DNA of 64,000 nucleotides from Thiobacter sp. AK1 (GCF_039822265.1 NZ_JBAJEX010000001.1:248001-312000), one strand, 5' to 3'; counted from the first letter of the stretch, positions 61,406 to 64,000 are shown. Notes: generated by a model not told the origin, from the letters alone. Numbers and translations: made by a program.

Positions 61406-61738
61406 TCAACCCAGCAAGGCGGTGGCATCCACCGCCTCGCCCTGGCTGTAGATCATCAGCCACTTGACGCAGATGACGCGCAGGCAAGAGGCGATGTTCT
61501 TGTCGTTGGCCACCAGACAGCCGTCATGAACGCGCTGGATGAGCTTGGGCAGGGTTAGTCCCAGTTCCCGCGCCATGTCCTCCAGCACGTTCCAGAAGGC
61601 ACGCTCCAGAGCGATGGTGGTGCTGTGACCGTGGATGCGGAAACCGCGTTTTTCCGGGATGAACTCCGTGATCTGCGCCGTGGTGCAGGCGTTGAACATA
61701 TGATCAAGGGCGTCGTGCTCCTCGATGAAGATCTTCAT
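61406..61738 (-). CDS. Ribbon-helix-helix (RHH_4) domain protein
   Basis: The 110-residue product has a ribbon-helix-helix domain of the RHH_4 type: RGFRIHGHSTTIALERAFWN, VLEDMARELGLTLPKLIQRV and ASCLRVICVKWL. The first 30 residues (EEHDALDHMFNACTTAQITEF) are acidic and contain a Cys; another three Cys follow in the main domain. ATG 61738 has an AGGAGAGGAG site. It is divergent from the YeeE/TusA operon with 162 bases between, so it is a candidate regulator of it; the RHH_4 group is not always DNA-binding in proven cases. Confidence 0.78.
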   Translation of the reverse strand: MKIFIEEHDALDHMFNACTTAQITEFIPEKRGFRIHGHSTTIALERAFWNVLEDMARELGLTLPKLIQRVHDGCLVANDKNIASCLRVICVKWLMIYSQGEAVDATALLG

Positions 61739-61900
61739 CTGCTCCTCTCCTATCGTTTCTTCCGATTACAACGCAGACACAAGTGCTTAGCAAGGTATCT
61801 CTGCCCGCGCGGCGCGAAGCGTCGCCTGTTGGCAAAGATTACTACCACGGGGCGAGCACGCTGGCCTATCCTTGCTTCAACGATACAACAAGGAGGCAAG

Positions 61901-62392
61901 GTGGAACTCTTCAAAAAAACGCTGGATCCGGTGTTCGCCCTGGCGGTGATCGCCGTGCTCGACATCTTTCTCTTCCTGACCATCGGCGCCTGGACCGTGG
62001 GCGGCGGCGAAACCATGATGACCGGCCTCATGGCTCAGGCCATCCTGGGTGAAGACCTTAAGCGCCTGCCCTTCTGGAGCCTGGTGTTCCAGCCCCACTG
62101 GGACTACTGGAAGATGTACATCAGCCTGGGCATGTTCTTCGGTGCCTTCCTCGGTGCGGTGCTCAGCAAGGAGTTCTACCTGCGGGTGCCGCGCCGCCTA
62201 TCGGAATGGGTAATGATCACCCTGGGTGGTCTACTCATGGGCGTAGGCATCCGCCTCGCCTTCGTCTGCAACGTGTCTACCTTTTTCGGCCTCACCCCGG
62301 AAATGAACCTGGGTGGCTACCTGGCCGTCTCCGGCATCGTCGCCGGCGCCTGGGTCGGTTCCCTCGTGTACAAAAAAATGTTGGAGGGGTAA
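61901..62392 (+). CDS. YeeE/YedE-family membrane protein, first half
   Basis: The 163-residue protein (GTG 61901, with AGGAGG 5 bases before it) has about five membrane helices. It shows the family core GGLLMGVGIRLAFVCNVSTFFG with a conserved Cys, and an N-terminal helix PVFALAVIAVLDIFLFL. YeeE/YedE proteins (TsuA type) carry thiosulfate through the inner membrane by way of conserved Cys residues. Here the transporter is split in two genes, only 2 bases apart, as in PmpA/PmpB pairs. Confidence 0.85.
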   Translation: MELFKKTLDPVFALAVIAVLDIFLFLTIGAWTVGGGETMMTGLMAQAILGEDLKRLPFWSLVFQPHWDYWKMYISLGMFFGAFLGAVLSKEFYLRVPRRLSEWVMITLGGLLMGVGIRLAFVCNVSTFFGLTPEMNLGGYLAVSGIVAGAWVGSLVYKKMLEG

Positions 62393-62394
62393 AC

Positions 62395-62994
62395 ATGTCC
62401 ACCATCGCCGAATGCATGATCGCCTTCATTTTCGGTAGCGTCGTAGGCCTTTTGGTGCAGCGCTCCCGGTTCTGCAACACCGCCGCCTTGCGCGATGCCA
62501 TCATGTTCCAGACCTATCGCAACACCAAGGCGTTACTGGTGGCCATGATGATTCTCACCCTGGGCTTCACCGCCTTCATGACCGTGGGCGCAGGTCATCC
62601 CTTGGATTTCGATGTGGGCCTCAATACCTTTCTGGGCCTGTTCCTGTTCGGGGTGGGCATGGTGCTCGCCGGCGCCTGCACCGTTTCCACGTGGGTAAAG
62701 GCCGCGGAGGGCAACGTGGGCGCCGTATGGGCGCTGCTGTTCACCTTCATCGGCATGTTTCTCTTTTCTCTGCTCTGGTCCTACAACCAGTGGCCGCCGG
62801 CGCCCGCCTCCATGACTGGTGACCCCAATCCCGAAGCGCTGCAGGCGGGTTTTGCCAATGCCCGTACCCTACAGGAAAAAACCGGCATCCCCGCCATTGT
62901 CTTCGGCCTGATCCAGTTCGCCGTGCTGCTCGGCATTTACCGGGCGATCCGGCGCAAGGAAAAGGCTCGCGAACAGGATGACGCTCACGAATGA
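62395..62994 (+). CDS. YeeE/YedE-family membrane protein, second half
   Basis: The 199-residue protein has about five membrane helices and the family motifs GLLVQRSRFCNTAALRDAIM and GVGMVLAGACTVSTWVKAAEG, each with a conserved Cys that would line the path for thiosulfate or another sulfur compound. The C-terminus is charged (RRKEKAREQDDAHE). It follows the first half by 2 bases and precedes a TusA-like gene by 15 bases, so imported sulfur could be handed to TusA. Confidence 0.86.
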   Translation: MSTIAECMIAFIFGSVVGLLVQRSRFCNTAALRDAIMFQTYRNTKALLVAMMILTLGFTAFMTVGAGHPLDFDVGLNTFLGLFLFGVGMVLAGACTVSTWVKAAEGNVGAVWALLFTFIGMFLFSLLWSYNQWPPAPASMTGDPNPEALQAGFANARTLQEKTGIPAIVFGLIQFAVLLGIYRAIRRKEKAREQDDAHE

Positions 62995-63009
62995 AACAAG
63001 GAGACAACG

Positions 63010-63312
63010 ATGGGACTTTTTGCTAACAAGAAAACGCAAAGCGCAGGCAGCGGGGGCAGCGCGACCCTACCGAACGGGCAGATGGTGACCGTGGCGCGGC
63101 AGGTGGATGCCATCGGCGACTCCTGTCCCCGCCCCCAGCTCATGACCAAGAAGGCGATGGGCGAGCTTACTTCCGGCCAAGTGCTGGAGGTGATTGTGGA
63201 CAACCCCACCTCGATGGAAGCCCTGCCACCCATGTGCGCGGAACTCCACTGTGAGCATCTGGGCACGGTCAATACCGGTCGCGCCTGGCATGTGTATCTG
63301 AGGAAACTGTGA
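63010..63312 (+). CDS. TusA-like sulfurtransferase
   Basis: TusA-family proteins carry persulfide sulfur on a Cys in a CPxP motif. The 100-residue protein has VDAIGDSCPRPQLMTKKAMG, with the active Cys, then LTSGQVLEVIVDNPTSMEAL. The first 30 residues (MGLFANKKTQSAGSGGS) form a flexible extension not found in E. coli TusA. An ACAAGGAG site precedes the ATG. YeeE-TusA pairs are known from thiosulfate-using bacteria. Confidence 0.92.
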   Translation: MGLFANKKTQSAGSGGSATLPNGQMVTVARQVDAIGDSCPRPQLMTKKAMGELTSGQVLEVIVDNPTSMEALPPMCAELHCEHLGTVNTGRAWHVYLRKL

Positions 63313-63313
63313 C

Positions 63314-63523
63314 ATGGCCCGTTTCTTGATGCGCGCCTATCTGGCAGTGTCCCTTGCCATCTGCGCCTGGGGCGTGTGGAAGGTCTATCTCCACCCGCCG
63401 GCGAGCATGAAGGTCAACCGCGACGGCGTACCCTATTTCACGCCGCCGGTGATCGACCCGGCGACCGGCAAGCCGATTCCCGTTGAGGTCCTGGTACGCC
63501 ACTACAAGGGTGAGAAACCATGA
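63314..63523 (+). CDS. Small membrane-anchored protein of unknown function
   Basis: The 69-residue product has one membrane helix (residues 5-24, LMRAYLAVSLAICAWGVWKV) and a short Pro-rich soluble tail (FTPPVIDPATGKPIPVEVLV). It begins one base after the tusA stop and overlaps the next small gene as ATGA. I do not recognise the family. The arrangement suggests a membrane partner for the sulfur proteins before it. Confidence 0.7.
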   Translation: MARFLMRAYLAVSLAICAWGVWKVYLHPPASMKVNRDGVPYFTPPVIDPATGKPIPVEVLVRHYKGEKP

Positions 63524-63612
63524 TCGTCGACTTCGAAACCACGCTCCAGATCGTTATGTTCGTCATCGCCTTCGGGGTGATGTACCTCGCCTTACTCCAC
63601 GACACGCTCTAA
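63520..63612 (+). CDS. Single-helix membrane microprotein, 30 residues
   Basis: ATG 63520 overlaps the previous stop (ATGA) and the frame ends at TAA 63610-63612. The product is MIVDFETTLQ followed by a 20-residue hydrophobic run (IVMFVIAFGVMYLALLHDTL with a polar end). It looks like a small membrane subunit of the CcoQ/CydX size class. Translational coupling and a lone membrane helix argue that it is real, though too short for usual gene finders. The function is unknown. Confidence 0.6.
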   Translation: MIVDFETTLQIVMFVIAFGVMYLALLHDTL

Positions 63613-63619
63613 GGTCGCC

Positions 63620-63886
63620 ATGAACCGCGAAAGCCTAATCTTCTGCATCCTGGCCCTGGCTGCGGCGCTGGCCATTTCCGTCCTTGGCTTCCGCTACGCC
63701 GCGCTACCGCCCGAAGTGGTGGCGCAAGCCAAGACCCCCGTCACCCCGGACAAGCTGCCGGAGTTGGACCTGGGCAGCTTTGGACGAGTCTCCGGCATCG
63801 ACCTGATGGCCTACTGGATGGAGCATCCCCCGGCGGCGGGCAGCGACGCCGCGCCCGCCTCGGTGAAACGCTTTGGAGGCTGCTAA
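63620..63886 (+). CDS. Small membrane-anchored protein of unknown function
   Basis: The 88-residue product has an N-terminal hydrophobic helix (LIFCILALAAALAISVLGF, residues 5-23), then a periplasmic or cytoplasmic part rich in Pro and Ala (LPPEVVAQAKTPVTPDKLPE), GIDLMAYWMEHPPAAG and a C-terminal Cys (KRFGGC). It is 7 bases after the microprotein stop and 3 bases before the next gene. I do not recognise it. Confidence 0.7.
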   Translation: MNRESLIFCILALAAALAISVLGFRYAALPPEVVAQAKTPVTPDKLPELDLGSFGRVSGIDLMAYWMEHPPAAGSDAAPASVKRFGGC

Positions 63887-63889
63887 AGC

Positions 63890-64000
63890 ATGCGCGCCCT
63901 GTTCTGGCTGCTCGCTTGCACGATCTTGCCTGCCCGCGCCGAGCTGGGTCTGCGCCCCGTGCTTCCCCCGCCCGGGGTCGAAGTGGTGCTCCTCGACGTG
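63890..64000 (+). CDS. Secreted protein, start only (cut by the window edge)
   Basis: ATG 63890 opens a frame that runs off the right edge after 37 residues: MRALFWLLACTILPARAELG, then LRPVLPPPGVEVVLLDV. The first part is a signal peptide. The visible mature residues are too few to assign a family. It is the next gene of the YeeE-TusA operon. Confidence 0.6.
   Translation, partial: MRALFWLLACTILPARAELGLRPVLPPPGVEVVLLDV

Follow-up and report, generated by a model that had tools for sequence, protein, structure and literature searches.

A conserved twelve-gene operon with a split YeeE transporter, TusA and membrane microproteins, and its probable role in sulfur import in sulfur-oxidizing proteobacteria

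Introduction

By what route does the sulfur that the Sox system leaves in the periplasm reach the oxidizing enzymes of the cytoplasm? This route is called poorly understood or unknown in the literature, and the question is raised by a locus of Thiobacter sp. AK1, found at the right end of the window analysed here (the whole stretch of 64,000 nucleotides, G000:C1:248001-312000). The contig continues as L002, in which a position equals the window position minus 60999.

Several YeeE-based systems are available for comparison. YTD clusters (yedE, tusA, dsrE, chp1, chp2) have been described in sulfur disproportionators (PMC12998232, PMC9751629). A reinterpretation classes them as yeeE-tusA-dsrEFH type II, which transfers sulfur in vitro via one DsrE cysteine (PMC13293266); a structure is also available (PMC13047784). 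The YeeE-like protein SoxT imports sulfur for oxidation, SoxT1 has been studied alongside sHdr, and PmpA/PmpB of Serratia represent a two-chain form of YeeE, with about 130 aa in each chain (PMC11582611). The papers found in the open-licence literature include work on YTD and SoxT, but the present set of 12 genes appears in none of them. The operon probably encodes a machine dedicated to importing and relaying sulfane sulfur in sulfur oxidizers equipped with both Sox and rDsr, a reading to which we assign a probability of about 0.68.

Layout of the locus

The 12 genes are arranged in the order YeeE-a, YeeE-b, TusA, p69, p30, p88, rhdL, DsrE-like, DsrF-like, DsrH-like, rhd2 and cytochrome c, and the window contains only the first part of the operon (Table 1). 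The downstream genes mostly overlap or are separated by short gaps, and unrelated genes lie past the right end. The YeeE-a start codon is a GTG, which corrects an earlier reading. The first-pass annotation, made from the window alone, had recognized a split YeeE/YedE pair with conserved cysteines, an extended TusA-like protein, the start of a secreted protein and a divergent RHH_4 protein, all of which were borne out by the profile matches and, for the secreted protein, by a gene running past the window end. Its expectation that the operon exceeds the window also held, extension to the right leading to about 66770 in window coordinates.

Table 1. Features of the operon and its upstream region, in window coordinates unless marked L002
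Feature	Position	Strand	Evidence or remark
RHH_4 protein, 110 aa, divergent, probable repressor	61406-61738	-	Pfam E 5.9e-21
Predicted operator TTGGCAAAGATTACTACC, consensus TTKSCAAWRAWTACYACC	61829-61846	+	54 bp 5' of first YeeE gene
YeeE-a, C-terminal half of YeeE/YedE (PmpA-like) sulfur transporter	61901-62392	+	Sulf_transp E 1.4e-20, profile 171-310
YeeE-b, N-terminal half (PmpB-like)	62395-62994	+	Sulf_transp E 1.4e-24, profile 1-156
TusA with N-terminal extension, Cys39 in CPRPQ	63010-63312	+	TusA E 5.9e-20
p69, microprotein of 69 aa, one TM helix and motif GVPYFTPPV	63314-63523	+	76 family members; purifying selection
p30, single-TM microprotein of 30 aa	63520-63612	+	76 family members; conserved position
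p88, 88 aa, single TM helix with a flexible C-terminal tail (...FGGC at its end)	63620-63886	+	terminal Gly-Cys conserved
rhdL, rhodanese-like with signal peptide	63890-64474 (L002:2891-3475)	+	PDB rhodanese profile match; window ends 111 bases in
DsrE-like gene	L002:3472-3765		beyond window; DsrE fold of model
DsrF-like gene	L002:3762-4040		beyond window; DsrF fold of model
DsrH-like gene	L002:4037-4216		beyond window
rhd2, secreted rhodanese	L002:4237-5172		beyond window
Secreted cytochrome c	about L002:5121-5771, start uncertain		beyond window

Conservation and distribution

A search for p69 across 250 genomes from the order of the home genome gave nine positives from several families, and in the eight genomes other than the home genome, the remaining operon genes were present around p69, apart from a few gene calls that were missing or broken. 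A contig scan with the DsrF-like family returned 110 relatives, of which 80 were kept, from alpha-, beta- and gammaproteobacteria (taxa as labelled in the records); the carriers include Thiobacillus, Sulfuriferula, Sulfuritalea, Sedimenticola, Magnetovibrio, Maritimibacter, Thiorhodococcus, Rhodobium and many MAGs. A profile scan showed the operon order to be near-perfect in 89 loci, with gaps chiefly at contig ends; four of these loci duplicate records already represented and were excluded from later counts, and small order swaps in the locus table are an artefact of sorting on stop-to-stop frames. No further carriers were found in a wider phylum sample. Clustering of the flanks, which returned mostly antisense frames, served as a lead only.

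The gene order, whose conservation in sulfur oxidizers the first-pass annotation had named as a check, recurs across the three proteobacterial classes, and the small genes are decisively conserved beside YeeE and TusA. The genes downstream do not come from an unrelated pathway; they are rhdL, the DsrE/F/H-like genes, rhd2 and the cytochrome c gene. The locus is a real, widely conserved and apparently undescribed operon for sulfur import and relay, a module that occurs in about a hundred genomes and includes several genes without annotation.

Cysteines of the transporter, TusA, rhodaneses and cytochrome

Both YeeE halves exceed the gathering cut-off of Sulf_transp (PF04143) and have conserved pore cysteines: Cys123 of YeeE-a (72/73), and Cys7, Cys27 and Cys95 of YeeE-b (in 68, 73 and 74 of 74 sequences, respectively). 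As in PmpA/PmpB, there are two half-size chains, one for each half of the long form, but the chains are longer here (163 and about 200-220 aa) and the gene context is different. The operon shares with SoxT1/SoxT2 the YeeE family and, probably, the import of sulfur for dissimilatory oxidation, and differs from them in its two-chain transporter, rather than one long chain, in its Dsr-bearing carriers and in having small proteins of its own. TusA Cys39 is invariant (75/75).

The rhdL profile (A5) matched rhodaneses in the PDB (E 5.6e-16), and the corresponding alignment has no conserved catalytic cysteine in the active-site loop; rhdL is a rhodanese relative that looks inactive. Its only conserved cysteines, a Cys43/Cys53 pair near the N terminus, are present in 78/84 sequences. 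Most rhdL homologues are about 300 aa long, with a C-terminal hydrophobic stretch, the shorter form being found in this genus. The rhodanese domains of rhd2 retain the catalytic cysteine (Cys264, conserved), and the CxxCH motif of the cytochrome c is conserved. Cysteines are conserved wherever a sulfur relay would need one: in YeeE-a/b, TusA, the DsrE-like protein, rhd2, rhdL and the cytochrome.

Co-occurrence with Sox and Dsr

Among 45 carrier genomes, 42 have SoxB above its cut-off and 42 have a DsrA above that of TIGR02064, a model that does not tell the oxidative from the reductive type; no dissimilatory DsrA was found in carriers G092 and G273. SoxC exceeds its cut-off in only 8/45 carriers, so most of them must dispose of SoxY-bound sulfur by other means. 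In the sample of 250 genomes of the order, DsrA occurred in 8/9 p69-positive genomes versus 43/241 others (Fisher p 1.4e-5) and SoxB in 9/9 versus 110/241 (Fisher p 0.001), these counts and tests being uncorrected for phylogeny. Conversely, only 8/51 DsrA-positive genomes of this sample have p69, and the operon is therefore not required for rDsr.

These figures bear on a different function for the operon, in which the YeeE pair would take in whole thiosulfate and TusA would split it, as in TsuA/TsuB, for assimilation or oxidation, the small proteins being accessory. How TsuA/TsuB work is established (PMC11582611 and references therein), and the thiosulfate transporter models of NCBIfam match each YeeE half, though with scores below the cut-off. 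However, an assimilatory role leaves unexplained why DsrA and SoxB each occur in 42 of the 45 carriers, and why a secreted rhodanese, a cytochrome c and DsrEFH-like proteins are grouped in a single operon. Moreover, TusA and DsrEFH type II of cable bacteria took no sulfur from thiosulfate (PMC13293266). Import of whole thiosulfate is, on balance, unlikely.

A second DsrEFH-like set and its relation to YTD

Profile searches of the PDB with the DsrE-, DsrF- and DsrH-like families gave no DsrEFH/Tus relatives, and profile-profile comparison of the DsrE-like with the DsrF-like family yielded nothing useful. Confident AlphaFold2 models (pLDDT 96.6 for the DsrE-like protein and 96.7 for the DsrF-like protein) point to DsrE/DsrF folds for both: the DsrE-like model aligned with DsrE of DsrEFH (2hy5_A) with a Z of 13.0 and an rmsd of 1.9 over 95 aligned residues, and the DsrF-like model with DsrE/DsrF-family structures with a Z of 11.3 and an rmsd of 2.2 over 90 residues (Z 9.1 with DsrF, 2hy5_B). 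Cys61 of the DsrE-like protein is conserved in 83/83 sequences and aligns with the DsrE cysteine of the canonical DsrE of the home genome. This genome has dsrA, dsrB, canonical dsrE, dsrF and dsrH, and dsrC together (named by sequence and a DsrA model match), and also soxB; the DsrEFH-like set of the operon is therefore a second one. Its identity to the canonical proteins is low, at 15-24% for the DsrE-like protein with DsrE and 16-29% for the DsrF-like protein with DsrF.

The operon has the synteny of YeeE/YedE, TusA, a DsrE-like protein and two small proteins by which YTD or dsrEFH type II is recognized, with YeeE split here, and the single, invariant functional cysteine of DsrE; the clustering of YeeE and TusA with three small DsrE/F/H-like proteins is likewise common to both. 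Two genomes of the same order have loci with a full-length YeeE that we read, from gene content, as YTD clusters, and their subunits match the operon profiles (E 2e-9 to 3e-5). The operon could, in principle, be the YTD cluster of proteobacterial sulfur disproportionators, given that both have yeeE, tusA, a dsrE-like gene and two further small conserved genes as their core, and that its profiles match (E 1e-7 to 1.5e-8) a YTD-like locus of the same order. This is the least probable of the explanations considered, as its carriers mostly have SoxB and DsrA, and many belong to sulfur-oxidizer genera, the DsrE-like and DsrF-like proteins are no more than 19-31% and 19-33% identical, respectively, to those of the two YTD-like loci, and the role of YTD itself in disproportionation is disputed (PMC13293266). 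Furthermore, the additional conserved genes of the operon (p69, p30, p88, rhdL, rhd2 and cytochrome c) are absent from published YTD, as is the divergent RHH gene present in about half of the loci. The operon is best filed as a distinct, larger, oxidizer-side variant of the yeeE-tusA-dsrEFH kind, for several parts of which no described match was found; it would extend DsrEFH type II from sulfate reducers to sulfur oxidizers, or define a third type.

Three membrane microproteins

The very small membrane proteins noticed at first pass, at least three in number, withstood closer analysis: the three small ORFs have homologues in identical order at more than 70 other loci, and the dN/dS values of p69 (0.07-0.14), p30 (0-0.14) and p88 (0.06-0.17), calculated for those pairs of relatives in which synonymous change was sufficient, are so low that these microproteins must be regarded as genes. 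All three have a single TM helix, and p69 and p30 have no conserved cysteine. Charge balance favours an N-in/C-out orientation for p69 (42 versus 11), which leans to a periplasmic tail, and an N-out orientation for p30 (49 versus 4); for p88 (31 versus 19), charge does not decide the side of the tail. A comparison of p69 with p88 in hhalign (probability 53%, E 1.4e-4) suggests that the two may be distant paralogues.

The tail of p88 is rich in proline and alanine and ends in Gly-Cys in 78/79 homologues, 68 of them with GGC, and the sole homologue without this ending is a frameshifted copy. No match to p88 was found in Pfam, the PDB or any other database searched, and no plasmid copy was found. 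SoxY has its cysteine on a flexible C-terminal arm, in the motif GGCGG. By analogy, p88 would work like SoxY, with a cysteine on a flexible, glycine-containing C-terminal arm. Unlike SoxY, p88 is membrane-anchored and ends exactly at the cysteine, with GGC or xGC in place of the C-terminal GGCGG, and it has no SoxY sequence match or other detectable sequence relation. The terminal cysteine would then be the sulfur-carrying residue. On a bolder proposal, which is tentative and about which we are more doubtful than confident, p88 would be a sulfur carrier of a new class: a microprotein, tethered to the membrane, that bears the sulfur on its C-terminal cysteine and swings like an arm in the periplasm to load the split YeeE channel. 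The import complex still missing from the picture of many Sox-rDsr oxidizers would then consist of p88, p69, p30, rhdL and the cytochrome, and a sulfur-sensing RHH repressor would control it.

A possible route for sulfur

In a dedicated import and relay machine, the imported species would be sulfane sulfur. This sulfur, a remainder of the Sox system or drawn from polysulfide, would be taken up in the periplasm by rhd2 via Cys264 and passed to the terminal cysteine of p88. As a membrane-tethered swinging arm, p88 would be held near the transporter together with p69, p30 and a membrane-anchored rhdL, and the cytochrome c would remove electrons upon thiol oxidation, possibly at Cys43/Cys53 of rhdL. 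The YeeE-a/YeeE-b pair would then carry the sulfur across the membrane to Cys39 of TusA, and Cys61 of the DsrE-like protein, in a small DsrEFH-like complex, would relay it to the canonical DsrEFH/DsrC and rDsrAB. The function first proposed for the locus, sulfur import and relay, is well supported by the YeeE pair, TusA, the DsrE/F folds, the rhodanese and the co-occurrence with Sox and Dsr; the accompanying idea that the small proteins receive sulfur from YeeE and TusA is more conjectural, and sulfur may instead pass from the terminal cysteine of p88 to the transporter on the periplasmic side.

The direction of sulfur flow is not readable from the sequence, and sulfur transfer between TusA and its partners is reversible in vitro (PMC13293266), as would suit a machine working outwards or sideways, loading or unloading sulfur globules or detoxifying sulfane sulfur rather than feeding rDsr. 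The strong link to DsrA and the import type of the YeeE proteins argue against such a machine, which we consider very unlikely. The preferred reading, import towards rDsr, is accessible in cultured carriers (Sulfuriferula multivorans, Sedimenticola selenatireducens, Magnetovibrio blakemorei and Maritimibacter, among others), and the question of the sulfur route becomes directly testable with an operon that is conserved, self-contained and regulated separately and that has conserved cysteines for both membrane sides.

Regulation

The divergent protein has an RHH_4 domain (PF13467) over the cut-off and differs from ordinary RHH_4 paralogues in conserved cysteines that are absent from the latter: Cys18, Cys74 and Cys85, invariant in 41/41 operon-linked copies, and Cys90, present in 38/41. 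In three alphaproteobacterial genomes, similar cysteine-bearing RHH genes have soxB as a neighbour at a distance of a few kb. An 18-bp site lies between the RHH and YeeE genes, in one orientation throughout, with at most three mismatches to TTGGCAAWRAWTACYACC in 36/37 cases and no occurrence in shuffled controls. The refined consensus was found in 37/41 RHH-bearing loci versus 0/31 RHH-less ones (Fisher p 2e-16, not corrected for phylogeny), and the single perfect site in the home genome is the one at this operon. The RHH protein is thus tied to the operon by a conserved predicted operator and is its likely regulator. Since its cysteines are absent from ordinary paralogues and its kin lie near soxB, it is attractive to infer a sulfur-sensing repressor, which would act at the consensus site and probably sense sulfur via the conserved cysteines.

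A sigma-54 reading of the motif on the RHH side was rejected, as in many sites GG and GC do not occur with the spacing required. The RHH-less loci have another arrangement: among the 23 of them for which 3.5 kb or more of upstream sequence is available, genes for a histidine kinase and an NtrC-type regulator adjoin 15, versus 0/31 RHH-bearing loci, and a sigma-54-like promoter is present in most RHH-less loci, in many cases 50-90 bp 5' of the first gene.

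Apparently damaged, RHH-less and related loci

In one operon-bearing genome (G092), p69, p88, rhdL and the DsrF-like gene are broken by frameshifts or stops at L016; no DsrA match over the cut-off was found in this genome, which does have SoxC. The broken genes may reflect either decay of the operon following Dsr loss or sequencing errors. At L032, an operon copy without the RHH gene, YeeE-a is preceded by a sigma-54-like promoter. The two YTD-like loci (L101 and L102) come from genomes of the same order as the home genome, both with a DsrA match.

Coordinates of the features discussed
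Feature	Coordinates	Description
L016	G092:C1:1292000-1308000	apparently damaged operon copy
L032	L032:16-3442	upstream neighbours of the operon copy: PhnD-like binding protein, histidine kinase and NtrC-type regulator
L101	G167:C48:14000-29000	full-length YeeE, TusA, DsrE-, DsrF-, DsrH-like genes
L102	G145:C27:2000-17000	as L101
Home, just ahead of operon	window:60152-61060	broken, putatively transposase-like ORFs
Home, past operon	L002:5830-6080	probable tRNA gene, minus strand

Both home flanks were read by eye, and beyond the putative tRNA gene its end occurs a second time. In three alphaproteobacterial genomes (loci L132, L133 and L134), soxB lies within a few kb of Cys-bearing RHH_4 genes, with a YeeE-like gene close by in two; these RHH_4 proteins are a candidate regulator family of sulfur oxidation.
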